Origin: Opitutia bacterium UBA7350 | GTDB taxonomy: Bacteria > Verrucomicrobiota > Verrucomicrobiia > Opitutales > Coraliomargaritaceae | Length of the DNA stretch: 64,000 bases | Assembly: GCA_949524905.1 (NCBI GenBank) | Contig: CATINC010000007.1 | Span: forward strand, 1-64,000 | Direction: 5' to 3' | Shown: positions 24,979-43,023 of the stretch, piece by piece | How positions within the stretch are numbered: the stretch's first letter is position 1 | Layout of the letters: each line of letters opens with the position of its first letter | The notes under the pieces: generated by a model | Seen by the model: only the letters and a program-made list of their open reading frames with translations | The model's database searches: none | Told to the model about the DNA's origin: nothing | Program-made: the position numbers and the translations under genes

Positions 24979-24991
24979 AGTATCTCTAATT

Positions 24992-25536: not shown

Positions 25537-26403
25537 TCAGCGTTGCAACTGCAGTTCATAAATATTTCCATCGCGATCAATCAACTCGACCGCATCTTCG
25601 GTAACCCCCGCTAGGCCAATGGCAGGCACCCGAGAAACTAAATCCCCTTGGCGATAAATATCCATCGGGTTAACGCCTCCTAATATAACTGCCGAGGAAA
25701 ATTCGCGGCGAAGCGGTTGCCGCTCCAGAATTTCGGATTTAACAATATCCCCTTCGCGATATACTTCCGGAAATACGTCACCATAACCTAATGGCTTCGC
25801 TTCCACTTCTCTTTTCACGGGCGAAGTTGCCTCTAAGGATAGTGCCTTGACCACATCTTCCACCGTTTGGTATTTGCCATTTTCATTCAACTGACCTTGA
25901 TCCGGCATAGCAATTTTACCCAAGGTCAAAGCCTGCCCGTCCTTCGTTTTTACGTCATCGCCCTCACGCTTGCGGATGACGCCAAATCGTACAAAAAACC
26001 CGGTCCGGTCGAGACCCATGTTTTCTGCAATATAACTGGTCAACTCTTCCTTTTCAATTTCCACCTCTCCAGTTTCCGCATCTACCTTAATTGCCAATTG
26101 AACCGAGGGAAGGGTATCGTCCTCAAGTTGGTGATCAGCCACAAATAATTCACGCTTCATGCTGGCGAACTGCTGCCAATTATTCGGCAACCAACGTTCT
26201 TTAGTAAAAGCCTTTGCGATACGACTGGCCTCTATCTCAAGTACAGGCGACGACTTACTCTCGGTGAGTACGAATATTTCCTGCTTCTCAAAATAACCCT
26301 TGATATCGATCCGATCAAATGTGCCAAGACGGTACAGAAGAAAAACTAGAACCAGTAAAGATGCCGGAATAACAAACCTAGGATTGTTTAGAAGTTGTCG
26401 CAC
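25537..26403 (-). CDS. Single-pass inner-membrane protein of the secretion/pilus operon (GspC/PilP-like?)
   Basis: 288 aa from a GTG whose first base overlaps the preceding TAG stop. A short cytoplasmic tail and a TM helix at about 10-28 are followed by a periplasmic region ending in a small beta domain (VPAIGLAGVTEDAVELIDRD) that resembles HR/PilP folds contacting a secretin. I do not recognise the family from sequence; its position after GspL- and GspM-like genes is that expected for a GspC- or PilP-type linker. This is one of the few starts with a GGAGG nearby, although that sequence also lies in the previous coding region. Confidence 0.7.
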   Translation of the reverse strand: MRQLLNNPRFVIPASLLVLVFLLYRLGTFDRIDIKGYFEKQEIFVLTESKSSPVLEIEASRIAKAFTKERWLPNNWQQFASMKRELFVADHQLEDDTLPSVQLAIKVDAETGEVEIEKEELTSYIAENMGLDRTGFFVRFGVIRKREGDDVKTKDGQALTLGKIAMPDQGQLNENGKYQTVEDVVKALSLEATSPVKREVEAKPLGYGDVFPEVYREGDIVKSEILERQPLRREFSSAVILGGVNPMDIYRQGDLVSRVPAIGLAGVTEDAVELIDRDGNIYELQLQR

Positions 26404-27008
26404 TACTCCTCCACCTCACTTTCTTCTGCCTTTTGGATCAGATAAATTACATCCATTTCAGTGCGATAACCTCTGGAGTCACGTTCAATGTAGATTCGAG
26501 AAAAATCTTTGGTCGGCGACTTGCGCCAAAGATAAGTACATGCCTGTAGTAAAGTATTTGCGGGCAAAAAAGCAGTGCCATCATTTAAAGTGGTGCCCTG
26601 TGATCGTCCTTCATAGGTAACTACAATGGAGCCCAACCCCAAGGTATCATCTGGCATTTCCTCTTTTTTAATACTCGCAGATTCAATGATCCAACCACTT
26701 GCGCTAAAAGCTGTATTCGTTATGCCAACGAGGGTTTTTTCGCTCGTCTCTAATTCAGAAAGAAATTCATTACTGAAAATTTGTAAGCGTTTTTGCAAGT
26801 CGCCCTGACGCATTCCCTCAAGCTCCTGCGCCAGTCGCTGTCGCTCTTGCTTGAGGGCTATACGTTCGGCTAGTAAAGCCTCGTAACGCGCCTCGATGGG
26901 TCGATAACCCGTGCCCAGATAAACAATCGCCACCGAAACCACGAAGAGAATAAAAATGACCGGGTATGAAGCCAGCAAGGTATAGAAAGTGTAAAGTAAT
27001 TTTCTCAT
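26403..27008 (-). CDS. GspM/PilO-like inner-membrane protein
   Basis: 201 aa. The TM helix at about 13-33 is followed by a coiled coil rich in Glu/Arg/Leu (about 40-75) and a small alpha-beta periplasmic domain. This size and layout is that of GspM and PilO proteins, which form inner-membrane platform dimers with GspL/PilN. Sequence alone is too diverged for a firm call, so the assignment rests on layout and on the GspL-like gene just upstream and the GspC-like gene just downstream. Confidence 0.65.
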   Translation of the reverse strand: MRKLLYTFYTLLASYPVIFILFVVSVAIVYLGTGYRPIEARYEALLAERIALKQERQRLAQELEGMRQGDLQKRLQIFSNEFLSELETSEKTLVGITNTAFSASGWIIESASIKKEEMPDDTLGLGSIVVTYEGRSQGTTLNDGTAFLPANTLLQACTYLWRKSPTKDFSRIYIERDSRGYRTEMDVIYLIQKAEESEVEE

Positions 27009-27017
27009 GTGACCATA

Positions 27018-28364
27018 TTACTTTTCAAATGGAAGTAGGTTAAACGACAGCGTGAAACTACGCAACGACCCCCGGCGCTCAAAACGCGACTCCCGATTAC
27101 GTTCACGCACAAATGCCAACTGCCAATCAGTGTAGCGCCAACCACGTTTTTCTAGGCTTTCCTCAAAACTTTCCAATGTTTCCACTAAATCAACATCTGC
27201 CGATAAAGGCCGCCCTCGCATTTCTACTTTAATGATCGGTCCTTCTACATCGAGGGTGCAGTCAAGCATGTCTAATTCCACCACACTCGGCAAACTATGT
27301 GATATACCTCCCACCGCCACCGCTAATGGCATGGGCACCACGTCCTCACTAGACATTCCTATCCGCTCACGACTAAAGTCAATCACATGCAACAATGCGC
27401 GGTTATTAACAATGTCATTTTCAATTTTCTTCGTTACCAACGATTCACTTTGTATTTCCGTCTGCATCGCTTCCGTGCGTAACTGCACCTCGCGCTTGCG
27501 CTCTACTTTTGGTAACATGAATAAGAAGCTGAGCCCCAAAAAGAGAATACTGGCGGCAAATGCTCGGTGGCGAATCGCACGCCTCCGTTGACGATTCCGC
27601 TGCTTTGGTGCGATCAAATTTAATTTCTGCAAAGGCCCAGTCTGTAGTAGACGTCCAACCAAACTTGCATCTTTCTCAGCATCTGCCTCAAGTTCTATCC
27701 CTTTCAATTTAAGGTCTGGCGTCTCCCCAAATTCCTGTTCAGTAAAAAGTGCCAATCGTTTTGATGCCGCCTCCAGTACAAGCGCATCCACATCTGCACG
27801 AGCGACCCGATTCACAAAGAGAAAACGGCCCTGCGCATCGTAAGCTAATAAGTAACCTGAAATATTTATGGCACGATAAATCACTTGCGCCTGCCCACTT
27901 TCATTAGGCTCGGCCTCTAGCAAAGCCAAGGCGTGCGGCAAACTGTAGATCCCTTCCAGCACAATACCCGATTTTAATGCCCAACGCGCGATGGGTTCAC
28001 TAAGCCCTTCCGGCAAACTCGCTACAAAATGAAAGCTGTGTGTCCCCTTTTCCGTGAGCCCCATTGAATGAGTCACCCAACTGCGCGGCACCTGACCATA
28101 AATTTTTTCTTTTCGCTGCACCATTAACTGACGTTGCATCTTTTTCGCCAGTGGCGGAAGCCGCTCAACATGATGATCCAGCGATGCATGATCCAGATAA
28201 ATTACAAGATGCGAAATTCTAAGCTTGCCCTCATGGGCTTTAAGAAAAGCCAACAATCCCTCGGCATCTTCAATCGCAGCCTCCGCCAACAATTTTGCCG
28301 AATGACGTTTTTTTCGCCAGGCCGTCAGCTTTCCATGATCCCAGATGATGTGTAGGCGTGCCAT
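27018..28364 (-). CDS. GspL-like (PilM/PilN-type) platform protein
   Basis: 448 aa. An N-terminal cytoplasmic part of about 260 residues with an actin-like/GspL pattern is followed by a basic patch (RNRQRRRAIRHR), a TM helix at about 268-285 and a periplasmic coiled coil plus ferredoxin-like domain. GspL and PilM/N proteins recruit the secretion ATPase and bind GspM/PilO. Nucleotide motifs are not obvious. It lies between the pseudopilin and the GspM-like gene, consistent with the order E-F-pseudopilin-L-M-C. Confidence 0.65.
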   Translation of the reverse strand: MARLHIIWDHGKLTAWRKKRHSAKLLAEAAIEDAEGLLAFLKAHEGKLRISHLVIYLDHASLDHHVERLPPLAKKMQRQLMVQRKEKIYGQVPRSWVTHSMGLTEKGTHSFHFVASLPEGLSEPIARWALKSGIVLEGIYSLPHALALLEAEPNESGQAQVIYRAINISGYLLAYDAQGRFLFVNRVARADVDALVLEAASKRLALFTEQEFGETPDLKLKGIELEADAEKDASLVGRLLQTGPLQKLNLIAPKQRNRQRRRAIRHRAFAASILFLGLSFLFMLPKVERKREVQLRTEAMQTEIQSESLVTKKIENDIVNNRALLHVIDFSRERIGMSSEDVVPMPLAVAVGGISHSLPSVVELDMLDCTLDVEGPIIKVEMRGRPLSADVDLVETLESFEESLEKRGWRYTDWQLAFVRERNRESRFERRGSLRSFTLSFNLLPFEK

Positions 28365-28382
28365 TCCAATAAAAAATATGGA

Positions 28383-29666
28383 TTAATATGACCAACGCTC
28401 CCCATCAAAGCGAAGACTTTCGAGATTTTCATTGATCTCAAATGTGCCTACTTCTGCACTGCTCCAGGGTTCGCCTAAAAGCAACTGTTGGCCAAGTAAA
28501 AAATAGCGGGTCTGGCTAGATAATTCCGAATTTCCCCAACCACCTAAATCAATAGGGCTATTGGGGCTATCGGGATCAATTAAGGCCATGGGCGCTCGAT
28601 CCGTTGCAAGCAATGTGATTTCTGTGCTTTCAAAAACTCCATTCTTGTAGCCTGCTACTGTAATTGAAATTTCTTCGCCATCATCTTGAATTTTGCCTCG
28701 GTCGGAGAGCACTAGAGCGGTCAACACCGTAGTGGTCGTTGCATTATTGCCGTTGTTATTACCATTACCGTTGCTCATTGATTGTTCCGTAAAAATGATG
28801 GATGCCTCGGCATCAATCATATTACTCGTTGAAACAAAAGCGGTGTTGTTATCCCATTCATCTATTAAGTCAGTGCCATTACGACTAGCATACGCACCCG
28901 CCCCACTGTTTGGGTAATTATTTTTATTCTCATCAAAGATGGTGCCATTTGGTGCCTTAACTGAGCGGAAATTCTCAATGCGTACCTCGCATAGCCATTC
29001 TCTTAGATCCACCCGTTGGACGACCAATTCCGCAGCACGATTTTCCCATGCTGTTTCCGAGAGCCCATAAAGATTCCATGAACCCGTGAGCGGAGCGCCA
29101 TCACTGCCCACCGCCCAGTCATCCCAGATATTGTTAAATTGTGTGCTGCTGAGCGTGTCTGGAATGGGTAAATCAGGATTGGTCGTTGATAACAGAAGCA
29201 AACGCATCTCAAGGGGATCTTTGAAATCAATGAGCCATTCCCTTCCATCGTCGGTGAGATCCGCAAATGACAAGCCAGAAAAACTGCTATCGGCAAAATA
29301 TAACTTTCGGACATTGCCTTCATTATTGCGCGAACCCAAGGGATAACGTGCCTCGATGGCACTACCAGATCCATGCCGCCCTGCGATATTCCACCAGTAA
29401 TCTTCATTCCCACCCTCTGCGGCGCGGGAGACGCTGTTATTATAAATAGGAAACATCTGTTCGCGAAGAATGCCGCGCTTCAAAGCATCTGCCAGTGGCG
29501 GCAAGGCTGCTTTTTCATCTACCAGTCGACGGTTCTCGATAACGTTCACAGTCAAAGGAATGGCGGCTGCCAAAAGAATGGAAGTAACCGCCATCACTCC
29601 AATCAGTTCCAGCAAACTAAAACCAGCACGGCGCCCTGAAGCGCCTCGATTAAGAATTTTTTTCAT
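28383..29666 (-). CDS. Large pseudopilin with type IV prepilin signal
   Basis: 427 aa. The prepilin signal has a basic leader and cleavage site at Gly15^Phe (AGFSLLELIGVMAV), with Glu at position +5 of the mature protein followed by the hydrophobic helix. The remaining 380 residues are far longer than GspG/H (140-200 aa) and include a low-complexity Asn/Gly segment (SNGNGNNNGNN, about 290-305). It may be a minor pilin of the GspK kind (large, capping the tip), but GspK-specific motifs are not clear. Located directly after the gspF-like gene. Confidence 0.85.
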   Translation of the reverse strand: MKKILNRGASGRRAGFSLLELIGVMAVTSILLAAAIPLTVNVIENRRLVDEKAALPPLADALKRGILREQMFPIYNNSVSRAAEGGNEDYWWNIAGRHGSGSAIEARYPLGSRNNEGNVRKLYFADSSFSGLSFADLTDDGREWLIDFKDPLEMRLLLLSTTNPDLPIPDTLSSTQFNNIWDDWAVGSDGAPLTGSWNLYGLSETAWENRAAELVVQRVDLREWLCEVRIENFRSVKAPNGTIFDENKNNYPNSGAGAYASRNGTDLIDEWDNNTAFVSTSNMIDAEASIIFTEQSMSNGNGNNNGNNATTTTVLTALVLSDRGKIQDDGEEISITVAGYKNGVFESTEITLLATDRAPMALIDPDSPNSPIDLGGWGNSELSSQTRYFLLGQQLLLGEPWSSAEVGTFEINENLESLRFDGERWSY

Positions 29667-29668
29667 GA

Positions 29669-30880
29669 TTAATTTAAGGCTCCGGGGCTGAGCATTTGCA
29701 CCAGAGGTAGGAAGACTGCCGCCGCGACAAAACCGGCCATTAATACAGTCGTTACAATCAGGGTTGGCTCTAATACCCCAAAGAAAGCCTTGATCTTGCG
29801 CGGCACAAGATCATCGTAGTAATCCACCACCGCTTCTAGGGATTCGTCCAGCGAACCACTGCGTTCCCCAACGCCCACCATTGTCCGAACCAATGCCGGA
29901 AAAGTGTTATCCTTTGCCATAGTGCTGCTCATCGTTGAACCATTTGCGACCGCAGCTTCAATTTTTACTACACTTGCTTCCACCACTCGGTTACCGACAA
30001 CATCCCTCGCCATGCGCAAGGAATCAGTGATCACAATACCGGCCTTCTGCATCAAAATCAAACTGCGCAGAAATCGTGCAATAGCGAGCGTGCGAATCAC
30101 GCCTCCTAGATAAGGAATACTGATCAACATACGGTCACGCCAATAAGCAGCGGTGGTAGAGATACGAAATAGAATCCTTAAGCCGATCGGCACAAAAAAT
30201 CCTACCACTAGTATTAACATCCAATACGCCACCACAAAATCACTCGCGGTGATCATGATTCGCGTCACCAATGGCAACGGAATCTCCAGTTCATACAAAA
30301 GTTCCACGACCGTCGGAAAAATAAACCGTAGGGCAATAAAGATAAAAGCCAACAAGGCTGCCACCACAAACATGGGATAGAGCATCGCCTGTTTAAAGGT
30401 CTTCCAATTTTGATCCAGCCATTCCATATAGCCACGCAGTGAAATTAAATTTTCTGCCAAGGTACCACTTCGCTCTGCCACGCGCACAACATTCTGCACA
30501 TAACTTGGAAATATCCGTGGAAATTGTGTTAAGCCTTCGCTCATAGGAGTGCCTTGCTCAACGACCTCAGCGAGACGTTGCCGTACCGTTCCCTGCACCC
30601 CACCGGCGTCCTCACCTTCCCGCGCTCGCAAAGCATCCACAATGGACACCCCCGCCCGCAGTTGCATTCCAAGTTGAAAAAGCAAATTTGCCAGGTCGGC
30701 AGTCTTCATCTTTAATCGCCGATAGCGACCCCCGTTAGAATTATCCTTTAAAGTACACTCTACCAATTCAAGATTCTCGATTTCGAGTAGTTCTCGCAAA
30801 CGCCCTTGAGTCTCGGCCTCTCGAACCCCTTGCCGCACGCGACCTTCCGGGCTAACCGCCTTGTATCTAAATTCAGGCAT
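29669..30880 (-). CDS. GspF/PilC inner-membrane platform protein
   Basis: 403 aa. Two repeats of the GspF domain are visible, each with LxxGxxxxxAL-type motifs (LGMQLRAGVSIVDALRARE and MQKAGIVITDSLRMARD) and three or four TM helices. The start matches the family pattern MPEFRYKA. It anchors the assembly ATPase and pseudopilins at the inner membrane. The start overlaps the gspE stop by 8 bases, so translation is coupled. Confidence 0.94.
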   Translation of the reverse strand: MPEFRYKAVSPEGRVRQGVREAETQGRLRELLEIENLELVECTLKDNSNGGRYRRLKMKTADLANLLFQLGMQLRAGVSIVDALRAREGEDAGGVQGTVRQRLAEVVEQGTPMSEGLTQFPRIFPSYVQNVVRVAERSGTLAENLISLRGYMEWLDQNWKTFKQAMLYPMFVVAALLAFIFIALRFIFPTVVELLYELEIPLPLVTRIMITASDFVVAYWMLILVVGFFVPIGLRILFRISTTAAYWRDRMLISIPYLGGVIRTLAIARFLRSLILMQKAGIVITDSLRMARDVVGNRVVEASVVKIEAAVANGSTMSSTMAKDNTFPALVRTMVGVGERSGSLDESLEAVVDYYDDLVPRKIKAFFGVLEPTLIVTTVLMAGFVAAAVFLPLVQMLSPGALN

Positions 30881-32651
30881 CTCCTGGGCACGCCTCCTCG
30901 CTGTCTAGTTGTACCACTCGGGCGATTTCTTCAACACTCGTCAGTCCCGCAAGCGCTTTTGCTAAACCATCATCTCGCATGAAAGGCACGCCCGCTTCAC
31001 GCAATTGATCCTGCATCTTACTAACAGAGTGGCCGTGCTCAATCCAGTTGCGCACAGCTTTATCCACTTCAACTATTTCAGCAATACTCACACGACCACT
31101 GTAACCTTTCTGAGCGCAGGCTTCACAACCTCCAGGGCGATACAAAGTGACTGCTTCTTTAACTAGTCTAGGGCTGTCTGCCCCCACCAAAGCATTCCAT
31201 TCCTTAGCGCTCATCTCAAAACTTTCGCGGCACACCGGGCATAGGCGACGCGCCAGACGCTGTGCACTCAATCCAAGTAAACTACCCGCTAAAAGATAAG
31301 GCGGCACACCCAGATCGGTTAAACGCGGCACCGCACTCAAAGCATCATTTGTATGCAAGGTGGAAAAAACTAGGTGACCGGTCAAAGCGGCTCGCACCAT
31401 TAATTCCGCAGTAACTTGGTCCCGCGTTTCTCCCACTAAAATGACATCCGGATCCTGTCGCAAAAGCGTGCGTAATCCCGCCGAAAAACTTAATCCAATT
31501 TCATCCTTAACCTGAGTCTGACGAATGAGTGGCATCCGGTATTCGATGGGATCCTCAAGGGTAAACACGCTTCGCGCCTCTGCATCGATCATGCCCAGTA
31601 AGGTGTAAAGCGTGGTCGTTTTACCGCTACCCGTTGGACCTGTTATTAAAAAGACGCCGTAAGGTTGATTTAAGACCTCTCCTAATTGTGCCTGTTGATC
31701 TTCTGAAAAACCTAAGGTGGGCAAGTCGAGCTTGAGGCGCGATTGGTCTAAAAGACGCATCACAATGCTCTCTCCATTACTACAGGGAAGACTTGAAACC
31801 CGGATATCCACCTCTTCTGAACCAATGGCAAAATGAATCCGCCCATCCTGCGGGAGCCGATCTTCCGCGGTATCCATTCCAGCTAAAATTTTAAAACGCG
31901 CCGTCAGAGCACTACGAATGGCACTGGGCAGGAGGAGTCCCTCTTCTAAAACACCGTCAACCCGCAAGCGGATCCTAAAAAAGCGCTCCTCCGCATGTAA
32001 GTGTACGTCACTGGCCTCTCGTGTTGCCGCATGCAGCAAAATTTGCTCCGCCAAACGAATCATCGGAGCGTCGTCTGAGGCTTGCTCCTCCAATTCAGCC
32101 TCATCCATTTGAATGATCGCAGAGACTGCATCGTAAAGATCCTGATGTGCACGGTAATTACGATTGATCGCCAAGCGGATGTCGGTTTCCGAGGCCGGTA
32201 AGGCTTCCACTGTTTGCCCAGCAGCTCCCTCAAGGCGTTTCAGGGTTGGCAAATCAAAAGGATTAGCGCAGGCAACCCAAAGGGCTCCTTTTCGCTCGGC
32301 TATCGGGATGGAGATGGTGTTTTGGCACAGCTCTAAAGGGAGGCGTTCGCGCAACTCATCACTTAAGACCAATCGCCTTAAGCTGAGATGAGACTGGTCT
32401 CCAGGTCCGGTAGCGATAAAATCTCGAGCAGTGCTCAACTGCCCTCGCACCGACCGATAAAGCGCTAACTGATCACTCGTTACCAGACCCAGACGTTGAA
32501 CCACCTCGGTGAAGCTCAAGCCCAACCGAGAGGCTTCGCGAGCCGCCAAGTCAGCCTGAGACTGAGTAAGGGTCCCTTCAGAAACAAGCCAGGCCTCCAT
32601 TTTGATGGAGGCCTGACCGTTTTCGTTCGACTGAATGTCTATATCGCTCAA
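30873..32651 (-). CDS. GspE/PilB-type assembly ATPase
   Basis: 592 aa from TTG; an internal ATG at 32600 (MEAWLVSE) is another possible start. N-terminal MshEN/T2SSE-N domains are followed by the core: Walker A GPTGSGKTTT (about 334-343), Asp box, Walker B, and a tetracysteine zinc site CPVC (about 472) and CEAC (about 505). It powers extension of a pilus or pseudopilus. The first codons include a perfect 11-base inverted repeat (32590-32615). It follows the pilin gene by 43 bases and overlaps gspF. Confidence 0.95.
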   Translation of the reverse strand: MSDIDIQSNENGQASIKMEAWLVSEGTLTQSQADLAAREASRLGLSFTEVVQRLGLVTSDQLALYRSVRGQLSTARDFIATGPGDQSHLSLRRLVLSDELRERLPLELCQNTISIPIAERKGALWVACANPFDLPTLKRLEGAAGQTVEALPASETDIRLAINRNYRAHQDLYDAVSAIIQMDEAELEEQASDDAPMIRLAEQILLHAATREASDVHLHAEERFFRIRLRVDGVLEEGLLLPSAIRSALTARFKILAGMDTAEDRLPQDGRIHFAIGSEEVDIRVSSLPCSNGESIVMRLLDQSRLKLDLPTLGFSEDQQAQLGEVLNQPYGVFLITGPTGSGKTTTLYTLLGMIDAEARSVFTLEDPIEYRMPLIRQTQVKDEIGLSFSAGLRTLLRQDPDVILVGETRDQVTAELMVRAALTGHLVFSTLHTNDALSAVPRLTDLGVPPYLLAGSLLGLSAQRLARRLCPVCRESFEMSAKEWNALVGADSPRLVKEAVTLYRPGGCEACAQKGYSGRVSIAEIVEVDKAVRNWIEHGHSVSKMQDQLREAGVPFMRDDGLAKALAGLTSVEEIARVVQLDSEEACPGDA

Positions 32652-32694
32652 TACGAATTAAGTTAAAATTCAGATAACCAAGCCAGGTAGAGGT

Positions 32695-33408
32695 CTATTG
32701 ATGAGCGACATAAAGATAGGCATCATGCGTGCCGTCAGATGCTTCAGCCGAGAACCAGCAGTTCGCTCCAGAGATATTTCCAGGGACACTGCCACCAATT
32801 GTGGACTCAGCAATGATAGAATCTTCACCTTGTACTGTTACTGGGAAAGGACCATTGACCTTAGTACCCAGTGCCGCTGCTTCCTGTTTAGTAAGCTTAG
32901 GAATGTAGTAATAAGCAACTCTAGTTGCATTACCGGCAGACTTGAAAAAGAGGTTATTGGCTGCGTATGTCGCGCTACCACCACCGGCGTCACAGGCACC
33001 CGATCCTGAAGTTGCGACACAACCCACCGCAAAGTCAAGTGCACCTTCTTCAGCTTCGCCGATTGGAGTTTTGATTTCCTCCATCAATAATTCTTGGTAG
33101 TAAAGAATGTGACCCAGGGTGTCTGCGTTACCAGATTCATTGGCAGGTGCAGTTCCGTCCGCGCCGGGGCGATTGTTGCTGTAGGTTGTTAGATCGCCAT
33201 CAAAAGGAATGCGGTCATATCGCTGATAGTAATTTAAAACCGCAGTCTTGGCAGCATTGACTGAAGAAATGGCTGAAGTCACTTTGGCATCGCGAATAGA
33301 TTCGATAACACGCGGTGCGACAACACTGGCTAGAATACCAATGATTGCGAGAACGCCAATCATTTCAATCAGCGTGAATCCTTTACGGGAGTTATGTGTA
33401 TTTTTCAT
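32695..33408 (-). CDS. Type IV pilin/GspG-like major pilin
   Basis: 237 aa. Leader MKNTHNSRKG^FTLIEMIGVLAIIGI with Glu5 of the mature protein and a hydrophobic N-terminal helix. The globular domain is larger than GspG and contains CVATSGSGAC plus a third Cys near the C-terminus (NCWF), so a disulfide loop is possible. As the first gene before gspE it is the likely major subunit. The upstream gap is AT-rich and carries a TATACT-like -10, but no confident promoter. Confidence 0.92.
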   Translation of the reverse strand: MKNTHNSRKGFTLIEMIGVLAIIGILASVVAPRVIESIRDAKVTSAISSVNAAKTAVLNYYQRYDRIPFDGDLTTYSNNRPGADGTAPANESGNADTLGHILYYQELLMEEIKTPIGEAEEGALDFAVGCVATSGSGACDAGGGSATYAANNLFFKSAGNATRVAYYYIPKLTKQEAAALGTKVNGPFPVTVQGEDSIIAESTIGGSVPGNISGANCWFSAEASDGTHDAYLYVAHQ

Positions 33409-33516
33409 AATTAGAATGGTTTATATTAGTTTTATACCAGCAGTATACGTAATCTTTCCGTAAACAAAGTTCCGCAAAATAGAAAATTTAATCAACCAAG
33501 AAACTATTTTCGTTCA

Positions 33517-34227: not shown

Positions 34228-34248
34228 ATGGCTTGTAAAATGAGGGAA

Positions 34249-35898
34249 TTAACGCTGGTTTCTGAAGGTTGATATCAAAATGTATAAACCAAGTAAAAAC
34301 GAGGCTAAAAAACCTAGCAAGCCTAAAACAGGGTACCCCATGACAAGGGGCTTTACCCCTGTTGTAATAACTAAAGACGAGCCAATGACCAGTGATCCAA
34401 CAATTATACCAGCGGTGAGGCGATTCATCGCTGCATTGAAGGTCTCCTCTACAGGCTCCGTTCCGGCATGGTGCATGTTGATCTGTATATCTTCTGCTTC
34501 GATCCGCTGAAGGATTCGCTGTAATTGTCCAGGCACCTGACTTAAATGGCGTGCAGCCGTGAGTGCGGGATAAAGAGTTTGGCGCTTTAATCCACCCAAG
34601 CTCCAGCGTGACTGTGCCAGTTCCTCTAAAAAGGGACGGGCTACTGGTTCGATTTCAAAGGCAGGATCGAGACCACGCGCGGTTTCCTCCACGCAAAAAA
34701 TTGCCTTTGCCACAAGGGTGTAATCGGTCGGAACATCGACCTGATTACATCCAAAAATATACAGTAGTTTAAGGGCTAAAACCCCAATTTCAGCCTTCAA
34801 TGCTCCTTGTTGACCATAACAGCTTAATAAATACGAGACCTCCGTCTCTAAACGTCCAAGATCAATCGCTTGACTTCCCGTCGACATCCGTTCTGCAACT
34901 CGCGTGACTGCTAAGGCATCGCTCGCAGCAATGGCCGCAAATAAATCAGCCAGTACGTAGCGCATTTCCACCGTGATATGTCCCGCTTGTCCCCAATCCA
35001 AAAAACAAATGCGCTTATCCGGCGTAATCAGCAAATTGCCGGTGTGTGGATCCGCATGAAAAAAACCCGTCGCTACAATTTGATGAAATACACTGCGCCC
35101 GCCAAGCAATGCCAATTCGCGAGCGGCATCAGGATCTAAATTTGCTGACTCAGGTGAGGAGCCCTCCACCCACTCTGTCACCAAGAGACGGCGGGTGCTC
35201 AAATTACGATCGACTGCAGGGGCAAAAACCCGCTCCTTTTCTTCATTCAAAGTACTGAAAACTTCCACGTTGTTTGCTTCGATGCGATAATCTAATTCGG
35301 CCTGTATACGAAGTTCTGCATCTACAACTAAGGCAGGAAGGTTGTACGCTTTTAGGGACGGCACTCGTATATGCAACTGCCGAGCAAACCAAGCAATGAT
35401 GTCCATATCTGCACGGATGCTGGCTTGGATCTCCGCTCGCTGTACTTTGACCGCCACCCAGGCATTGTCGGTGCGCCGCCGCGCTCGATAAACTTGCCCC
35501 AACGAACCAGAAGCTACCGGAGTCGGATCTAATTCCGAAAATACTGAATCCACTTCTTGTTTTAATTCCTGGCGAAGCAGTGGTTCAATTTTCTTAAAAG
35601 CCTGGGGTTCGACTTGGTTACGTAGGCGTTTCAGTTCTTGGACTAAAGGCTCCGGCAAGCGATCCGGACGCGTGCAAAGCACCTGTCCAAATTTAACGAA
35701 AATGGGGCCCAGTTCCTCGAGGGCATTACGCAGTCGTTCATAAGGCGTCAGATGCGCCACTTTGGTGCGAACAAGATTTCGCAATAAAAACGGCGGGGTT
35801 TCTAACTGCAGGAGAAAGTCCTCAAACCCCCAGCGCACAAGGATGGCGACGATTTCTGGCGCACGAACGGCATTGCCAAGATAGTTAAAAGTTTTCAT
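34249..35898 (-). CDS. UbiB/ABC1-family atypical kinase
   Basis: 549 aa. Family hallmarks: the KxGQ motif in FVKFGQVLCTRPDRLP, an Ala-rich loop with SGSLGQVY, the catalytic Lys in AVKVQR, FFHADPHTGNLL, and CFLDWGQAG in place of DFG. Two C-terminal TM helices anchor it in the inner membrane. UbiB proteins support ubiquinone or isoprenoid lipid metabolism, perhaps as ATPases. No ubiquinone gene is nearby. The phasin-like gene lies 53 bases upstream on the same strand, a pairing I recall from other bacteria. Confidence 0.93.
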   Translation of the reverse strand: MKTFNYLGNAVRAPEIVAILVRWGFEDFLLQLETPPFLLRNLVRTKVAHLTPYERLRNALEELGPIFVKFGQVLCTRPDRLPEPLVQELKRLRNQVEPQAFKKIEPLLRQELKQEVDSVFSELDPTPVASGSLGQVYRARRRTDNAWVAVKVQRAEIQASIRADMDIIAWFARQLHIRVPSLKAYNLPALVVDAELRIQAELDYRIEANNVEVFSTLNEEKERVFAPAVDRNLSTRRLLVTEWVEGSSPESANLDPDAARELALLGGRSVFHQIVATGFFHADPHTGNLLITPDKRICFLDWGQAGHITVEMRYVLADLFAAIAASDALAVTRVAERMSTGSQAIDLGRLETEVSYLLSCYGQQGALKAEIGVLALKLLYIFGCNQVDVPTDYTLVAKAIFCVEETARGLDPAFEIEPVARPFLEELAQSRWSLGGLKRQTLYPALTAARHLSQVPGQLQRILQRIEAEDIQINMHHAGTEPVEETFNAAMNRLTAGIIVGSLVIGSSLVITTGVKPLVMGYPVLGLLGFLASFLLGLYILISTFRNQR

Positions 35899-35951
35899 GG
35901 CCTATAATAAAATTACTTCCATGCCTTTAACCCGATCGACGCAAATCGCCC

Positions 35952-36281
35952 TTAATCGGCATTGGGGAATTCTCGATGCAATTTTCCTTCAAGCTCAGTG
36001 ACACGGGCAGCAAGTACGTCGTATTGATCCTTTGTGACGACGTTGGCGCTGTGGAGGAGCTCATTAAAGAGATGGCTGGCTTGTACCTTTGCCTTTTCAG
36101 TTTCCGCCTCACCCGTTGCAACAATCTTTTCAGACATCGCCGCCGCTTCTTCTTTGGTAAGGTTTCCTTTTTCTACCAGTTCGTGCAATGACTCCAGTAC
36201 TTTGTCCTTCGTCACGACGGCGAGACCCATACCCGCCAACATTGATTTTTTCATCAGTTCAATCATGATGTCGGGCAACAT
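35952..36281 (-). CDS. Phasin-like coiled-coil protein
   Basis: 109 aa from the ATG of MLPDIMIELMKKS. A longer frame to 36401 is rejected because it would begin within the terminator of the upstream operon. The sequence is mostly helix: VTKDKVLESLHELVEKGNLT, a Glu/Ala/Lys-rich middle, and a terminal leucine-zipper-like stretch (YDVLAARVTELEGKL). This matches the phasin/PhaI-like group (COG3937), whose members bind polyhydroxyalkanoate granules or regulate neighbours. No PHA synthase is seen in the window. It lies just upstream of the UbiB gene. Confidence 0.75.
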   Translation of the reverse strand: MLPDIMIELMKKSMLAGMGLAVVTKDKVLESLHELVEKGNLTKEEAAAMSEKIVATGEAETEKAKVQASHLFNELLHSANVVTKDQYDVLAARVTELEGKLHREFPNAD

Positions 36282-36352
36282 AAAGCTACATTCATATAAA
36301 AACAAGACTGGAGGTTGAGCACCGCAAGGGAGACAAACACGGGTAACTTCCA

Positions 36353-36383
36353 CAAAAAAAGGCTCGCCGTATAGGCGAGCCTT
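36353..36383 (-). terminator. Rho-independent terminator of the secretin operon
   Basis: On the minus strand AAGGCTCGCC-TATAC-GGCGAGCCTT is followed by a run of T. It starts about 20 bases after the secretin stop, closing the operon from 43023 to 36403. Confidence 0.92.
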
Positions 36384-36402
36384 AGAAAAGAGACGCTCCA
36401 AA

Positions 36403-38760
36403 TTACTGATCGTTGATCGAGCGATTTGTCGTTCCCGACGGAGTCATAATGGTCGGATTTTGGAAGAGCGCATTTGCCTTAGCATTATCGTAGCTTTGAC
36501 GAGATAGCGAACCACCAGGGCTCACGAGGTTAGCCGTTACAAAGATGAGAAGATTGCGTTTCTGACGGGTCTCGCCCTCTGAACGGAATAGACGTCCAAC
36601 CCCAGGGATGCTGCCCAGCACGGGCACTCGGTCGTTGATGTATTTCACTTCATCACGGGTCAAACCACCCATCACAAGCGTAGCACCATCAAAGACGGTG
36701 ACATCGGTGACAATCTCGCGCTTAGAAAAGATAGGCTGGAAGAAACCTGCTGGCACGGTCACGGTTGTACCGCCGCTGATCGCCACACTTGGACCACCAT
36801 ATTCGACGAAGCCTTCAAATTCAGTTACCTTGGGATTCAGCTCGAGACTGATGGTGTCATCGTTTTGCACATTGGGGGTAACCGAAAGTTCCACGCCCAC
36901 AGTTTGGGTTGTGAAATCCTCTGGGGTGCCCGCAGTGATTGATATTGACGCACTACCGCCGCCATTGTTGCCGCCGCCACTGGTTGAGGCAGTCGATTCA
37001 ATATCGCCGTAGCTTTCAGGGTAGCGGAATTCTTGACCCACTTTAATTTCAGCACGTTTGCCTGAGAGCACCGTGACTTTGGGTGCACTCATCAGATCAC
37101 TCCCCGTCTTGCGGGAGAGCGCGCGTATGGCTAAATCGATATCGTAGTTGTCAGCTTCAAGCAAGCCGCTGCTGACATACGTGTCGCTGGTAAAATCCGC
37201 AGCATAATCGACGGTGTTCCTGAGTTGCGGTGGAATCAATGGGATCGGCTGCTCACCGGTAATGGTTATCTGACTCTCGGTATTGGAAATATTAAAGGCA
37301 TCGTTCAGTGAACGGAGGCTGAAGTCCGCTACAGTAGCTCCATTGTTAGTAATGGTCCAATCAAAGCCGAGTTCTTCGAGATCACTTTGAGCGACTTCAA
37401 GGAATTTAGCTTCAATTTCAACCTGCTTGACTTCGCTGTAGTTGCGGAGGATGGCCCGCATGCGGTCTAAATTTTGACGGGTCTGGGTCACGATAAGTTG
37501 TTCGCCATCAAATGCGAGGCTGGCACCAGGAATTTCAAAGTTGACGCCGGCGCGCTGGAAAAAGGACTCCAAGAGCTCCGTCTTTTCTTCTGCAGCCGAG
37601 CCGCCGCTGCTGGCGGCGCTGACGGCAAAAGGATCATCGTCGAGAGCGGAAGGCCCGCTGTCACCCACTCCGGTGAGACGGATAACCGTACCTTGGGAGA
37701 TCGGAAAGAATTCAGTAACGGTGCTTTGACCGCCTTCAGGACCAAAACTCGGAGCAATGGTCACGGCATCTGAACCGACTTCGTAGGTAAAGTTGACTTG
37801 TTGCGTTACAAATTGAAGGATGCGGTCAAGGCTAAGATTCCGGAGGCTGATATTAACACTGGGATTAGTATTGTTGGGATTAAAGAGAACCACGATGTTA
37901 ACCCCCTCGCCTTCGGGGTCATACTGCAGGGAAAGTTCAGACAAGGTCTCGATCACCCGGGTTAGCTCTAAGCCAGAGAAATTAACCTGGGGGATGACGA
38001 TGCTGTTAAGCTTGCGCTGCGTGCTGCTATCGCCGCTATCGGAGCCATTATTAGAAGCGGAAATATCAAAGACTTTGGGTCGTTCCCATTGCTGATCGAC
38101 TTCGGTGAGCATTTGCTCCCGGGTTTTGTAAAGGTTAGCCTTTTGAATCGCGCCTAGGATCTGTGCGATGCGGGTAGAGTAAAGCTTCGCTTCTGAGTTA
38201 TTCGGCGCACGGGCTTCGACTTCCTTAAAAGTGCTGGCTGCTCCATCGTAATCACCATTTAAAAACTGAGCGCGTCCGCGCAAGATGAGATCTTCAACAA
38301 TTTCACTATCGGCAGCAAACTTGGGACTAATTTTAGCTAGGGCTAAATCGTCTGTCTCGGCCGGCTCTTCTTGAGCGATGACGTCGGGTGTACTCGCAGG
38401 TGCTTCCGAAACCGGAGGCACTTCAACTGGAGCAGTGAAATCCGTCACATTTGAAGGAGCACTCGTTGGCATGGCAAAGCTGGAAGCAGCACTTTGGCCT
38501 TCCATGGCATCGTTGACGGAGGCCAGAATGCGCTGGGCATTCGTATCATTGGGCACCAAACGAACAAGCTCCTCGGCTTTTTCTTTTGCGAGTGTTAGGT
38601 TTCCACTGTCACGTGCGCGTAGAGCCTCAGCCATGATTCGCACTTTTTCTGCGGTACTCTGAGCTTCCACAACCACCGGTGAGGTAATCAGGGTGCTAGT
38701 CAGCAAAACGGTCATAAGAACCGAGAAGAGGCGTTGTTTTACGAGGAGGTATATTTTCAT
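36403..38760 (-). CDS. Secretin (PilQ/GspD, Amuc_1098-like)
   Basis: 785 aa. A signal peptide (ending near Ala33) is followed by a TPR-like helical region, an STN/N0 domain (about 245-345, SLQYDPEGEGVNIVVLF), a secretin N-domain (VEIEAKFLEVAQSDLEELGF) and the C-terminal secretin pore with VTVPAGFFQPIFSKREI and VPVLGSIPGVGRLFRSEG. It would form the outer-membrane channel for pilus or pseudopilus. It ends a five-gene operon and is followed by a strong terminator. The N-terminal TPR-like region is shared with Amuc_1098, as I recall. Confidence 0.94.
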   Translation of the reverse strand: MKIYLLVKQRLFSVLMTVLLTSTLITSPVVVEAQSTAEKVRIMAEALRARDSGNLTLAKEKAEELVRLVPNDTNAQRILASVNDAMEGQSAASSFAMPTSAPSNVTDFTAPVEVPPVSEAPASTPDVIAQEEPAETDDLALAKISPKFAADSEIVEDLILRGRAQFLNGDYDGAASTFKEVEARAPNNSEAKLYSTRIAQILGAIQKANLYKTREQMLTEVDQQWERPKVFDISASNNGSDSGDSSTQRKLNSIVIPQVNFSGLELTRVIETLSELSLQYDPEGEGVNIVVLFNPNNTNPSVNISLRNLSLDRILQFVTQQVNFTYEVGSDAVTIAPSFGPEGGQSTVTEFFPISQGTVIRLTGVGDSGPSALDDDPFAVSAASSGGSAAEEKTELLESFFQRAGVNFEIPGASLAFDGEQLIVTQTRQNLDRMRAILRNYSEVKQVEIEAKFLEVAQSDLEELGFDWTITNNGATVADFSLRSLNDAFNISNTESQITITGEQPIPLIPPQLRNTVDYAADFTSDTYVSSGLLEADNYDIDLAIRALSRKTGSDLMSAPKVTVLSGKRAEIKVGQEFRYPESYGDIESTASTSGGGNNGGGSASISITAGTPEDFTTQTVGVELSVTPNVQNDDTISLELNPKVTEFEGFVEYGGPSVAISGGTTVTVPAGFFQPIFSKREIVTDVTVFDGATLVMGGLTRDEVKYINDRVPVLGSIPGVGRLFRSEGETRQKRNLLIFVTANLVSPGGSLSRQSYDNAKANALFQNPTIMTPSGTTNRSINDQ

Positions 38761-38812
38761 AGTAAGGATTAGCGTTTAAGATTAGGACGTAAGCAATTAT
38801 GTTTTTTAATTT

Positions 38813-39712
38813 TTAAAACATACTGTCGAACGGAGTCGTGTTTAAATCCGTGGCAGTAGGCTTTGTATCAGTTTCATTGGGAGCACTTGCATCATTTGAT
38901 GCTTCAACCGCAAGTAATTGAGTTTCGGCTTCGCGCTCGCCATCGACAAAGGTTTTTTCAACCGTAAGGGTAAGTGCCTCAAAATCAATATCCGTGAGGC
39001 GATAAGCTCTTTGGTCTCTTTCAAAGGTAGCTCCAATGGCATTGGGTTTCCATTCCTGAGATGGATCTTTGGAAGACCGAAGCAAAATTTCAACGCCCTC
39101 GGTATAATAGGGTTTCCCATGGATGAGTTCGATTGTTTCCCCATTGCGATAATCCATGATAGTTGCCATGGCACGCTTAGTGATACTACCGTCATCACCA
39201 AAAATACGGTCGATAGTAAAATCAATGACTTCAATGTCATAGCCCTCTGGAGCATCGCCTACTCGCACCCGCAGGTTTTCACCGCTCTCTTCATCCACCA
39301 TGAGTAAAAGGCTTTTAGTGGCGTCTTTGAAATCCTCTTCAATATAGCCCATCAGTTGAATGCGATACAAGGCCTGCTCCAACTTAGCAAGATAGAGCCC
39401 AAACGGCTCTGAAGGAGGACGTGGTTTCCAGCCTTCGCTCACCCACTCACCTGTTTCGAGGTTGATGTAAATTTTTGGCGGTGTGAAAACATCGTATATC
39501 CACCCGGTGGATTGCTCAGCAGCTTCAGGCCAGGCGGCATCCGCAATATTTAAGCTAGGTATCGGCAAGGGGGTAAAGGCGGCGCCTTTTGCTTTCGCTG
39601 CCTCGATTGTTTCGTCGGGTTCTGGACCCTCGCTGAAAAGGTAGAAGGCCGCACTCGCCACGAGCGCAAGCACGCCCAGCAAAAGAAGGATTTTATCGTA
39701 AGAGCGTTTCAT
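38813..39712 (-). CDS. PilP-like inner-membrane protein (Amuc_1099 position)
   Basis: 299 aa. TM helix at about 8-26, then a Pro-rich linker and what looks like two HR/PilP-like beta modules: one around YRIQLMGYIEEDF and NLRVRVGDAPEGYDIEVIDF, and another around YRLTDIDFEALTLTVEKTF. PilP-type modules contact the secretin and link it to the inner-membrane platform. The C-terminal 35 residues are disordered. Not recognised by name; assignment rests on this pattern and on its position between the PilO-like and secretin genes. Confidence 0.7.
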   Translation of the reverse strand: MKRSYDKILLLLGVLALVASAAFYLFSEGPEPDETIEAAKAKGAAFTPLPIPSLNIADAAWPEAAEQSTGWIYDVFTPPKIYINLETGEWVSEGWKPRPPSEPFGLYLAKLEQALYRIQLMGYIEEDFKDATKSLLLMVDEESGENLRVRVGDAPEGYDIEVIDFTIDRIFGDDGSITKRAMATIMDYRNGETIELIHGKPYYTEGVEILLRSSKDPSQEWKPNAIGATFERDQRAYRLTDIDFEALTLTVEKTFVDGEREAETQLLAVEASNDASAPNETDTKPTATDLNTTPFDSMF

Positions 39713-39717
39713 GGCGT

Positions 39718-40716
39718 TTAGGCGTCTTCTCCTTCATCGTTGATAGTTTCAGCAGGCAGCACGACTTCAATAAATTCCAGCAAGAGTGTGAAAGTCGAGA
39801 GGTTATCTACGATAACGGGTTTCTGTGCTTCTGCTTCAGTGTTTTCCTCTGTGGATTCATCCATCGCATATGGCCCAAATATAGATTCAAAATTATTTGA
39901 ATTATCTGCAGGCTCGACGCTTACAATGTCACTTTCTGCAGGGCGATCAACCTTCACACCGCGTACAACAATAGGGAGATCAAACTTTGCCAACTCGTTT
40001 AAAAAAAGACGCAGGGATTCAGTGTAACCTTTAAAACTCACGCGGAATGCCAAAGTATTAATCGCATTGGGTACTCGCGCAGAAATCGCTGGGTCGATCT
40101 TAAATGTTCCAGGAATTTGAAAAGCCGTTCCCTTTTGTTCGAGCCCCTCGCGCTCAATGAGCTCAATCGATTGCGGTTCTGCCACGATGAGTTTGTCGAC
40201 CAATACTGCTAGAATTTGGCGCTGCTTATCGAGCAAGGAAACCATTTGAGGATCGACGGGTATCGTGGCGGCATCTGCGTAGGCATCAAAACCAAAGGCA
40301 AAGCCTTCACCCGTCTCAATGGGTGCGGCCTCCGTTTCACCACTGAGGCCATTGATGGTTTCATGCGTCGCTAATTTAGAACCGGCTTCACTGATGAATT
40401 GCTGAATGGATGCCATCACCTCTACCCCGTCATCGGAAAGTTCTAGATTTGCGCCGCGCTCTAGATCGGTACGAATGCGGTCTAGTTGCGCGATTAACTT
40501 GGCAAGGTTCTCAGCAGAAGCTGCCACATTCTTCTCAGACGGCGCGGGAGCGCCCTTGTATGAGGCCTCGTAACTGCGTTTCGCGCTTTCCAATTTTTTA
40601 TCGGAATTTGCGGCCGCACCAGCAGCCATAAAAACGAGGGAAACTCCGCCTAAAAAGACCAGCAGGCAGAACAGAATCAATGCGGCAAAAACTGGATTTT
40701 TCTTCAAATTATCCAT
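39718..40716 (-). CDS. PilO-like protein, resembles Amuc_1100
   Basis: 332 aa. TM helix at about 10-33, a coiled coil (about 38-95), then a two-lobed periplasmic region including LAFRVSFKGYTESLRLFLNE and VDNLSTFTLLLEFIEV, which resemble the second-half beta-alpha-beta pattern of Akkermansia Amuc_1100 (a PilO-fold protein known as a TLR2 agonist). Length is close (Amuc_1100 is 317 aa as I recall). It would bind the PilN part of the preceding gene product. Its start is 5 bases after the PilM-PilN stop. An alignment is needed to confirm homology. Confidence 0.72.
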   Translation of the reverse strand: MDNLKKNPVFAALILFCLLVFLGGVSLVFMAAGAAANSDKKLESAKRSYEASYKGAPAPSEKNVAASAENLAKLIAQLDRIRTDLERGANLELSDDGVEVMASIQQFISEAGSKLATHETINGLSGETEAAPIETGEGFAFGFDAYADAATIPVDPQMVSLLDKQRQILAVLVDKLIVAEPQSIELIEREGLEQKGTAFQIPGTFKIDPAISARVPNAINTLAFRVSFKGYTESLRLFLNELAKFDLPIVVRGVKVDRPAESDIVSVEPADNSNNFESIFGPYAMDESTEENTEAEAQKPVIVDNLSTFTLLLEFIEVVLPAETINDEGEDA

Positions 40717-40721
40717 GAGGC

Positions 40722-42386
40722 TTACAGGGGCTTGGCTGGATCGATGACCAGTTTAATTTCAAAGGGTAAGACGTTGAGTCCGTCGTTGAGCATAGACCAG
40801 CGAATCCGTGGCGGCTTGGAGTCGACAATAAAAGCGGAGGTTTTCAAACTGGCGATCAGGCTTCGGATGCGGCGAGTGAGGACATCACGATCAATTCCCT
40901 GCGATCCGCCTGCTGTTTCGCGCACCAGCATCTGCCCCTCAAGAGCGACCTCATAACTGGAAGTGCCGTCTTCTTTTGCACGTAAAACCTTGAGCCCATC
41001 AAGCCAGACATCCTCGGCGTTTGATAAACTTTCCTGCATTTCAGCAAAGAATTGAATCCAATTACTCTTAGACTGCACCAAGCCTTCAACTTGCTCAATA
41101 GAGGCCTTGACGGATTCTGCTGCTTCAATGTTAACCGCAATGGTCGCTTTGTCTTTTTGAAAAGGCGCTGCTGCTTCACGATAATTTGCAATCTGGGCAT
41201 CTCCAGCCTCGGCTTTATCTTCAAAAACTTTCCAGACAGGCCAGGGCGCCAGTGCTAAACATATTGCAGCTGCCATAAGCAATGGTTTCTGCTTGGCAAA
41301 GCGCATCGCTTCTTGAATTTCATCCGGCAGCAGATTAACCCCAGCGCCATCGCTTAGCAATGGACGACATGCTTCGCCAATGATTTGAGGCACCAATACT
41401 CGCAAACTTTCGGGCTCCTCAGTTATACCAGCATCGAACGTCACGTTTTCAAATGGATCTAGTAATTCTACCGGCACTTTTTGACTGGTTTGCAAAAATT
41501 CCGCGAGCCCTCGCACTTGCGATCCGCGACCGCTTAGGAGAATTCTTGACGGTGCGGGAGCGTTATTTTGGCGGCGATAGTTGACGATTGAGCGTGTAAC
41601 TTCCTGAGAAATTCGGCGCATGAAAGCGTCCGCGCTATCTGTAAGAGCTTTTGCTCCATTGCTATCCTCTAATTCCTCGTTTTTATTATTGTAGAATTGT
41701 AGCTTGATGCTTTCTGCTTGCTCCAAATTTTTGCCCAAACTGTCAGCAATACTTTGACTCAAGACCTGTCCGCCTAAAGAGAGGTTGCGCACAAAGAAAC
41801 CGTTCGCATTTCGGAATAATAAATTAGTAGTGCGCGCTCCAATATTAATCAACAAGTCATCGGTGGCAGCCTCGGGATCCGCAAAGGCTAATAAATTATA
41901 TTCCAAGATACTAGCGGCAGTAAGGCCGTCTGCGGCGAGGCCCGCTGCTTGAACCATCGCACAAAATGCTTCAACGGTGGCTACTTTACAGGCTATAAAT
42001 AATACTTCGATTTCAATCCCATCGTCGCCTAAAATTTGGCTATCCCAGACAACTTCGTGGAGCGGATAAGGGATACTTTGCTGGGCTTCAAATGCGATGA
42101 CCTGAGCCCGCTTTTCTTCTTCCACATGAGGAATCTTGATGGTCTTGGTCAGGACTTGATTTCCAGGCAATATAAAAGTTGCACTCCCTTCATAGCCTCC
42201 ATTTTTGACGAGGGTTTTTAGAGCTGCACCCGTTGATCCGATCCAATTCTCATCGACTAGGGCATCGCAATCTAAATACTCTGTGGCGACCTCTTTTAAT
42301 ATAACCCTACCGGAATCGGCGCTTGTTAGAGCCGCCGTTACTCGGCTAGCACCACAGTTAATAATTAAACGGGACAAATTGCTCAT
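40722..42386 (-). CDS. PilM-PilN fusion, actin-like platform protein (Amuc_1101-like)
   Basis: 554 aa. Residues 1-350 form a PilM/FtsA-like actin fold: SRLIINCGASRV (phosphate-1), LLINIGARTTNLLF (phosphate-2) and ILLSGRGSQVRGLAEFL (adenosine loop). A TM helix at about 371-388 is followed by a periplasmic coiled coil and a PilN-like domain. In other bacteria PilM and PilN are separate; here one chain would join cytoplasmic ATP binding to the periplasmic platform. Amuc_1101 of Akkermansia, annotated FtsA-like, holds the same operon place. Not to be mistaken for cell-division FtsA. Confidence 0.88.
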   Translation of the reverse strand: MSNLSRLIINCGASRVTAALTSADSGRVILKEVATEYLDCDALVDENWIGSTGAALKTLVKNGGYEGSATFILPGNQVLTKTIKIPHVEEEKRAQVIAFEAQQSIPYPLHEVVWDSQILGDDGIEIEVLFIACKVATVEAFCAMVQAAGLAADGLTAASILEYNLLAFADPEAATDDLLINIGARTTNLLFRNANGFFVRNLSLGGQVLSQSIADSLGKNLEQAESIKLQFYNNKNEELEDSNGAKALTDSADAFMRRISQEVTRSIVNYRRQNNAPAPSRILLSGRGSQVRGLAEFLQTSQKVPVELLDPFENVTFDAGITEEPESLRVLVPQIIGEACRPLLSDGAGVNLLPDEIQEAMRFAKQKPLLMAAAICLALAPWPVWKVFEDKAEAGDAQIANYREAAAPFQKDKATIAVNIEAAESVKASIEQVEGLVQSKSNWIQFFAEMQESLSNAEDVWLDGLKVLRAKEDGTSSYEVALEGQMLVRETAGGSQGIDRDVLTRRIRSLIASLKTSAFIVDSKPPRIRWSMLNDGLNVLPFEIKLVIDPAKPL

Positions 42387-42438
42387 GAACTAAATAGATA
42401 GGGATCGTGTAATAATGGCAGGGTGGTCTCGCTCGGCA

Positions 42439-43023
42439 TCAAGATGTCGGTTCGCGGCGAAGGTACAAAGGCTCTTCGCGGAAATCATTATGAATTAGAG
42501 GCGGAGCTAAATAGGAAGGAATCAGTATATTTTTGTTAGCCTCAACTTGAGCATTGGCCTTGGACTGCATATTTTTTAACATCTCCAAATCGCGGATGTT
42601 CCCCATTGCAGGACTTTTTTGTGGCTCTTGGGCTTCACCCGCAATGGAAACTTCAATATAATAAAATTCAGGTTCCCCTCGGATCTCGTCACGTTCCATG
42701 ATCAAGCCGGGCATATAAAAATAAACGGTGTTTTTATCACGCGCTTCCATGATCATAATTTCAACCTGAGCGGTATAAAATCGGTATTCCCCAGAGCCAA
42801 TGCGATAAGCCAACAAGGGCTTAACCATAATATTTTCTAAATAATCAGCATTGACGGCATCTGGAGCAATATTGCCATTGCAAGTGAGTTCAATCTCTAC
42901 CTGCACCCAGCGATCGCCTAAAGTGTTGAACTTAACCCGATCTACTGTGATGGCGTCCTGAGCGCACAGTGGACGAATCAGCGTTAAGAAAAAAATTGTA
43001 AGGGGTAATAGCCTGTCGAGCAT
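42439..43023 (-). CDS. Secreted pilus-operon protein (Amuc_1102 position)
   Basis: 194 aa. A signal peptide ends at PLCAQ (about 21). The mature part is beta-rich (ITVDRVKFNTLGDRWVQVEI, RIGSGEYRFYTAQVEIMI, VYFYMPGLI) like a single Ig- or OB-like domain of about 110 residues, then a helical tail with MLKNMQSKANAQVEANKN. Unnamed; the position as first gene of the operon matches Amuc_1102, reported to be an Ig-like pilus-associated protein. A function in pilus assembly is inferred from context. Confidence 0.68.
   Translation of the reverse strand: MLDRLLPLTIFFLTLIRPLCAQDAITVDRVKFNTLGDRWVQVEIELTCNGNIAPDAVNADYLENIMVKPLLAYRIGSGEYRFYTAQVEIMIMEARDKNTVYFYMPGLIMERDEIRGEPEFYYIEVSIAGEAQEPQKSPAMGNIRDLEMLKNMQSKANAQVEANKNILIPSYLAPPLIHNDFREEPLYLRREPTS

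Follow-up and report, generated by a model that had tools for sequence, protein, structure and literature searches.

In diderm bacteria, each type IV filament machine is usually described as owning a secretin, and the MSH loci of mannose-sensitive haemagglutinin (MSHA)-type systems carry their own, MshL. Contact between GspC and the secretin GspD of the type II secretion system (T2SS), made through the homology-region domain of GspC, is established (PMC3169554). Denise et al. (2019, PMC6668835) describe for the superfamily both the borrowing of a prepilin peptidase and a generic type IV filament class, a catch-all in which peptidase and secretin are optional. Within the Amuc_1098-1102 genes of Akkermansia muciniphila, a TPR-plus-secretin layout has been described for PilQ (Amuc_1098), with an outer-membrane location by immuno-electron microscopy (PMC4960237). 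Here we compare these systems with two neighbouring gene sets at positions 25537-43023 of a 64,000-nucleotide window (contig 7, bases 1–64000) of Opitutia bacterium UBA7350, the genome of which comprises 1.67 Mb in 17 contigs and is 99.97% complete. In both sets every gene is an open reading frame (ORF) on the minus strand. It is likely, in our assessment, that the sets belong to two separate neighbouring type IV filament machines, one being the envelope half of an Amuc-type pilus and the other an independent third machine of this genome that probably uses a resident secretin.

Composition of the two gene sets

The first set consists of seven genes in the order pilin, GspE, GspF, large pilin, GspL-like, GspM-like and PilP/GspC-like (33408–25537):

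32695..33408, minus strand: major pilin, 237 aa (N_methyl 4.8e-08 in Pfam; gspG N-terminus 1.4e-10)
30873..32651, minus strand: assembly ATPase, GspE/PilB-like (T2SSE 2.5e-126 and MshEN 9.1e-14 in Pfam; own clade in the ATPase tree)
29669..30880, minus strand: GspF-like inner-membrane platform protein (T2SSF 1.7e-36 in Pfam, two stretches)
28383..29666, minus strand: second, large pilin-like protein, 427 aa (N_methyl 2.3e-05 in Pfam; Glu+5)
27018..28364, minus strand: GspL-like coupling protein, 448 aa (AlphaFold fold, Foldseek matches to PilM/GspL)
26403..27008, minus strand: GspM/PilO-position protein, 201 aa (position, topology, conservation)
25537..26403, minus strand: PilP/GspC-like protein, 288 aa (AlphaFold and Foldseek)

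The intergenic gaps of -8 to +43 bases fit an operon, and a comparison of nonsynonymous and synonymous differences with the closest relative (pN 0.04–0.19, pS 0.65–0.75) points to strong purifying selection on all seven genes. The initial annotation, made from the sequence of the region, had recognized an E-F-pilin-pseudopilin set on one strand, and the Pfam matches bear this out. Both pilin-like genes encode a prepilin N-methylation motif. That of the 237-aa pilin, a protein strongly conserved among relatives, reads GFTLIE with Glu+5; the 427-aa protein is conserved in 9 relatives and is the probable minor or tip subunit. The ATPase has a Walker A motif (GPTGSGK) and two CxxC pairs, and scores 513.6 bits against the gspE equivalog (cut-off 630), of which the resident T2SS GspE, at 532 bits, likewise falls short. 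The GspF-like protein is also under the cut-off of its equivalog (247.9 bits versus 424). The MshEN domain of the ATPase is shared with MSHA-type systems, a likeness that comes from domain content; unlike those systems, the operon has no secretin.

The last three proteins yielded nothing useful in Pfam, NCBIfam and PDB-sequence searches, and their alignments gave no signal in profile comparisons with the E. coli Gsp/Hof proteins and the counterparts in their own genome, so that the L- and C-like identities came solely from structure comparison. The AlphaFold model of the 448-aa protein (mean pLDDT 81.5) contains an actin-like cytoplasmic domain, one membrane helix near residue 269 and a periplasmic ferredoxin-like domain, and its Foldseek matches include PilM, FtsA and the GspL cytoplasmic domain (EpsL 1yf5, TMt 0.57; GspL 4pht, TMt 0.58). 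As modelled, the protein has a GspL/PilM fold, in agreement with the earlier GspL-like call. The 288-aa protein is predicted to have an N-terminal membrane helix and a C-terminal beta domain, the two best Foldseek matches of which (among 350,542 PDB chains) are both PilP, with E ~0.1-0.2 and prob 0.89-0.95. It is a candidate secretin-docking subunit and is kept in every complete copy of the operon. The 201-aa protein, with an N-terminal membrane helix and a coiled coil, is called GspM-like from its position, its size and its single N-terminal hydrophobic segment.

The second, distal set (43023–36403) contains five genes:

42439..43023, minus strand: Amuc_1102-position protein, 194 aa (position)
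40722..42386, minus strand: PilM-PilN fusion, Amuc_1101 family, 554 aa (PilM_2 7.1e-28; Amuc_1101_fam 1.9e-83; PDB PilM 1.1e-20)
39718..40716, minus strand: PilO-like protein, Amuc_1100 family, 332 aa (Amuc_1100_fam 1.5e-18 in NCBIfam)
38813..39712, minus strand: Amuc_1099-position or PilP-position protein, 299 aa (position, N-terminal membrane helix)
36403..38760, minus strand: type IV pilus secretin, Amuc_1098 type, 785 aa (Secretin 1.3e-37, STN and TPR in Pfam; Amuc_1098_fam 6.4e-112)

The secretin has a TPR, STN/N0 and secretin layout, and its match to Amuc_1098_fam (NCBIfam) far exceeds those to gspD or pilQ. The Amuc_1098, Amuc_1100 and Amuc_1101 families are present in order; their matches are significant and all three are under the curated cut-offs (67 bits versus 180 for the PilO-like protein), as could be expected of distant members. 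The set resembles the Akkermansia genes (PMC4960237) in gene order, in the TPR-bearing secretin, in the PilMN fusion and in the Amuc_1100-like protein, and differs in that its Amuc_1099 and Amuc_1102 equivalents are assigned by position and in the sub-cut-off scores. The 299-aa protein, which keeps its place in relatives, is PilP-like by position, size and one N-terminal hydrophobic segment, with no profile behind the call. The 194-aa protein, the gene of which comes first in the set in relatives too, is Amuc_1102-like by position and size and matched no profile; neither it nor the PilO-like protein found anything convincing in the PDB with phmmer. Profiles thus support the PilMN fusion, the PilO-like protein and the secretin of the initial annotation, the PilP-like protein being placed by position and size. 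We conclude that the set is the envelope half of a Verrucomicrobia (Amuc_1098-1102) type IV pilus.

In many relatives a very large gene (~1300-3100 aa) of the same orientation lies immediately 3' of the Amuc_1098-type secretin (L113:185-9478, L118:10426-18348, L108:3397-8967, L110:4760-9142, L111:10184-14176, L050:53-5551, L060:13895-18223). The gene is absent from the window, and its product is a candidate pilus-associated adhesin.

Three machines in one genome

Per-family searches of the whole genome found four assembly ATPases in addition to PilT, as well as three GspF/PilC proteins, two secretins and one prepilin peptidase. This tally amounts to three machines: the Amuc-type type IV pilus, a T2SS and the seven-gene E–F–L–M–C operon, which is a variant within the type IV filament superfamily. 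PilB1, PilT, PilB2 and PilC are consecutive on contig 17 (C17:105743–111585), the PilT scoring 464 bits (cut-off 319), and the PilB, PilT and PilC of the pilus, together with the prepilin peptidase, are thereby accounted for on contigs 17 and 15. As the distal set has its own motors on contig 17, it does not need the GspE of the window. A complete T2SS is encoded outside the window, on other contigs. Its genes on contig 5 are GspG, H, I, J and K (GspK at 5.5e-22), GspL- and GspM-like genes, GspD (338 bits, cut-off 351) and a small C-like gene; the GspE and GspF that go with them, solitary on contigs 13 and 17, were assigned to it by elimination and from the ATPase tree.

These counts change how the region is to be read. 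The initial annotation had noted two inner-membrane platforms with one ATPase and one secretin, which holds for the window and not for the genome. It was right that the region contains no prepilin peptidase or PilT; both occur elsewhere in the genome. Its suggestion of two machines sharing an ATPase is contradicted, because each machine has its own. It had named a second complete ATPase, platform protein and secretin elsewhere in the genome as evidence against its reading; further ATPases, platform proteins and a second secretin do occur, in the form of the complete T2SS, which in part refutes that reading.

Contig 5 also contains four tandem prepilin-like genes that weakly match the Verru_Chthon cassette proteins B, C and D (L026:5160-8120; G000:C5:91-94 kb).

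Distribution and exchange of the seven-gene operon

Most of the relatives compared are metagenome-assembled genomes (MAGs), and some are single-amplified genomes (SAGs). About a dozen of these MAGs and SAGs, from Puniceicoccaceae/Opitutales, have the seven genes in the same order. One genome outside the family has a block with the same ends, comprising, at 25–63% identity, pilin, ATPase, second pilin and L-, M- and C-like genes; the block there was read without its GspF frame, which an overlapping ORF masked in our filter. Of 373 genomes of the order, 20 gave a match to a profile of the GspL-like protein, and across 388 genomes of the phylum the matches were confined to the same families, plus one marginal partial match. 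Within the genus, the operon is absent from one of the two other genomes. Its distribution in marine Puniceicoccaceae/Opitutales is patchy. In the ATPase tree the operon ATPases form a single clade with full support, distinct from the clades in which the T2SS, PilB1 and PilB2 ATPases of these genomes fall, and the operon therefore did not arise by recent duplication of a resident machine. The tree, in which branches are long, does not place this clade relative to T2SS or PilB.

The extra ATPases of G006, G010 and G018 were considered as hidden copies of the operon and rejected, as they adjoin response-regulator genes and not pilus genes. GspE/PilB-like ATPases near response-regulator genes, with no pilus genes nearby, were seen at L151:8906-10660, L152:1680-3416, L153:9986-11689, L154:9288-11000 and L155:9435-11144, and are possibly regulatory ATPases.

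The distance from the operon pilin to the pilus secretin was measured at 3.0 kb, confirming the ~3 kb originally noted between the sets. Three genes lie in this gap (33517-36401) and, as far as seen, belong to neither machine:

33517-34227, minus strand: HATPase protein (Pfam)
34249-35898, minus strand: ABC1/UbiB kinase (Pfam)
35952-36401, minus strand: 149-aa ORF

Here, as in genera g7 and g9, the operon adjoins the pilus secretin, at differing points. It follows the kinase here and in g9, and in G008 it stands immediately after the secretin, so that the 149-aa ORF and the kinase are downstream of it. In G033 and G302 it is ~30 kb from the pilus secretin, and in G006, G009 and G019 it is on a different contig.

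Two g9 MAGs, G032 and G036, carry at the secretin-adjacent site of g9 genomes a whole operon of the type found in genus g3, with native flanks (G032:C42, L060; G036:C23, L051). Their operon ATPase is 93.5–94.9% identical to that of g3 and 80–81% to those of the remaining g9 genomes; for the GspL-like protein the corresponding values are 73–75% and 42–46%. Conversely, the kinase in the flank shares 96–97% identity with that of the g9 genome G014, and the PilMN protein of G032 is 83% identical to g9 versus 66% to g3. The presence of a g3-like operon amid native g9 flanks, seen independently in both MAGs, means that the operon has been exchanged horizontally as a block, without a secretin.

These observations bear on the proposal of the initial annotation that the region encodes a single hybrid machine with two inner-membrane platforms, coaxial or alternative. 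Both in this genome and in several relatives, the sets do lie close together with the same orientation. However, the Amuc-type pilus set is complete in genomes lacking the operon too, the operon is found away from the pilus set, each set has its own motor, and the operon has been exchanged independently of the pilus set. Since each set is complete without the other, we consider a hybrid machine very improbable. Adjoining T2SS-like and type IV pilus-like genes, which might well be misread as one machine, do not here constitute one.

Secretins available to the seven-gene operon

In the loci and the nine module-positive genomes compared, no secretin lies inside the operon or travels with it. These nine genomes (G000, G001, G008, G009, G019, G033, G025, G284 and G302) have exactly two secretins, one of the Amuc_1098 type and one of the GspD type; G033, G025 and G284 are 79%, 89% and 66% complete, and the others at least 90%. 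The same two secretins are present in G005, which lacks the operon, and in G012, also without it, together with a short fragment at a contig end. As the third machine has no secretin of its own, exit would most likely take place through a resident one.

The gene content suggests how such a machine could work. We infer that the ATPase and the GspF-like protein would assemble the 237-aa pilin into a filament in which the 427-aa protein serves as a minor or tip subunit, that the GspL-like protein would couple the ATPase to the GspM-like and PilP/GspC-like proteins, and that the pilins would be cut by the single prepilin peptidase of the genome, borrowed for this purpose. By conjecture, the filament or its cargo might then leave by way of a resident secretin to which the PilP/GspC-like domain holds on. 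The adjacent Amuc_1098-type secretin would be the likelier partner, because the operon is repeatedly found next to it. Two machines sharing a secretin, another of the alternatives raised initially, is thus plausible, given a third machine without its own and a block repeatedly beside that of the pilus.

With its ATPase, platform protein and major pilin clustered (33408-29669), the operon agrees with the generic type IV filament model (PMC6668835), to which it adds a conserved L/M/C platform. The literature, covered in part, yielded no description of the seven-gene operon. These results lead us to propose, tentatively, that the operon may be a portable cassette for a type IV filament, lacking a gate of its own and using the existing secretin of its host, probably the Amuc_1098-type one, so that one secretin would serve two inner-membrane machines. 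If this is true, the notion of secretins as interchangeable outer-membrane gates for several inner-membrane engines in one cell becomes directly testable, as here a conserved machine with a putative secretin-docking protein and without a secretin moves between genera as a block.

Several points weigh against two separate machines with a shared gate. The relatives being mostly MAGs, each may have an unassembled secretin. The assignment of the GspM-like protein is positional, and the resemblance of the 288-aa protein to PilP carries weak E-values. The repeated adjacency to the pilus secretin could also mean that the operon is more closely integrated with the pilus than the word separate implies.

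It is also conceivable, but unlikely, that the operon encodes a minimal additional T2SS employing the contig 5 GspD rather than the neighbouring pilus secretin. Like a T2SS, it combines E, F, L-like, M-position and C/PilP-like genes in one operon, with a GspL-type protein instead of separate PilM and PilN. Nearly every operon-bearing genome searched has a GspD-type secretin, published T2SS models allow gspD as a 'loner' (PMC6668835), and in the two genomes of the genus that have the operon it is closely followed by a gene for a signal-bearing subtilase. On the other hand, the operon has two pilin-like genes only and no GspH, I, J and K, which form a set on contig 5, and it has no dedicated GspD, that of the genome sitting in the separate, complete T2SS, where it already has its own L, M and C. 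The operon ATPase belongs to a separate clade, its L, M and C proteins are unrecognised by sequence profiles, and in the loci read the operon was never beside GspD and often beside the pilus secretin.

The constant lack of an accompanying secretin would suit an endopilus, that is, a short filament in the periplasm or at the inner membrane that never crosses the outer membrane. The hosts, however, are diderms with secretins, and every complete copy retains the PilP/GspC-like protein, the known relatives of which dock on secretins. We therefore hold this explanation, too, to be improbable, and favour export by a separate machine through a resident secretin.

A third type of secretin (~520-690 aa) occurs in larger genomes (G006:C67, G010:C1:1570550, G014:C178, G024:C20, G030:C17, G234:C10). 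Those of G006, G030 and G234 are ~25-31% identical to the resident types and match neither well. This type was considered as the partner of the operon and rejected, as its presence does not track that of the operon. In G002, a genome of the same genus that is 98% complete and lacks the operon, no secretin was found though T2SS and pilus ATPases are present, which reflects either assembly gaps or a loss of outer-membrane gates. The subtilase downstream of the operon (23395-25056 in the window, and likewise in G001) combines Peptidase_S8 and CARDB domains with an N-terminal hydrophobic segment, and a role as cargo is conceivable.

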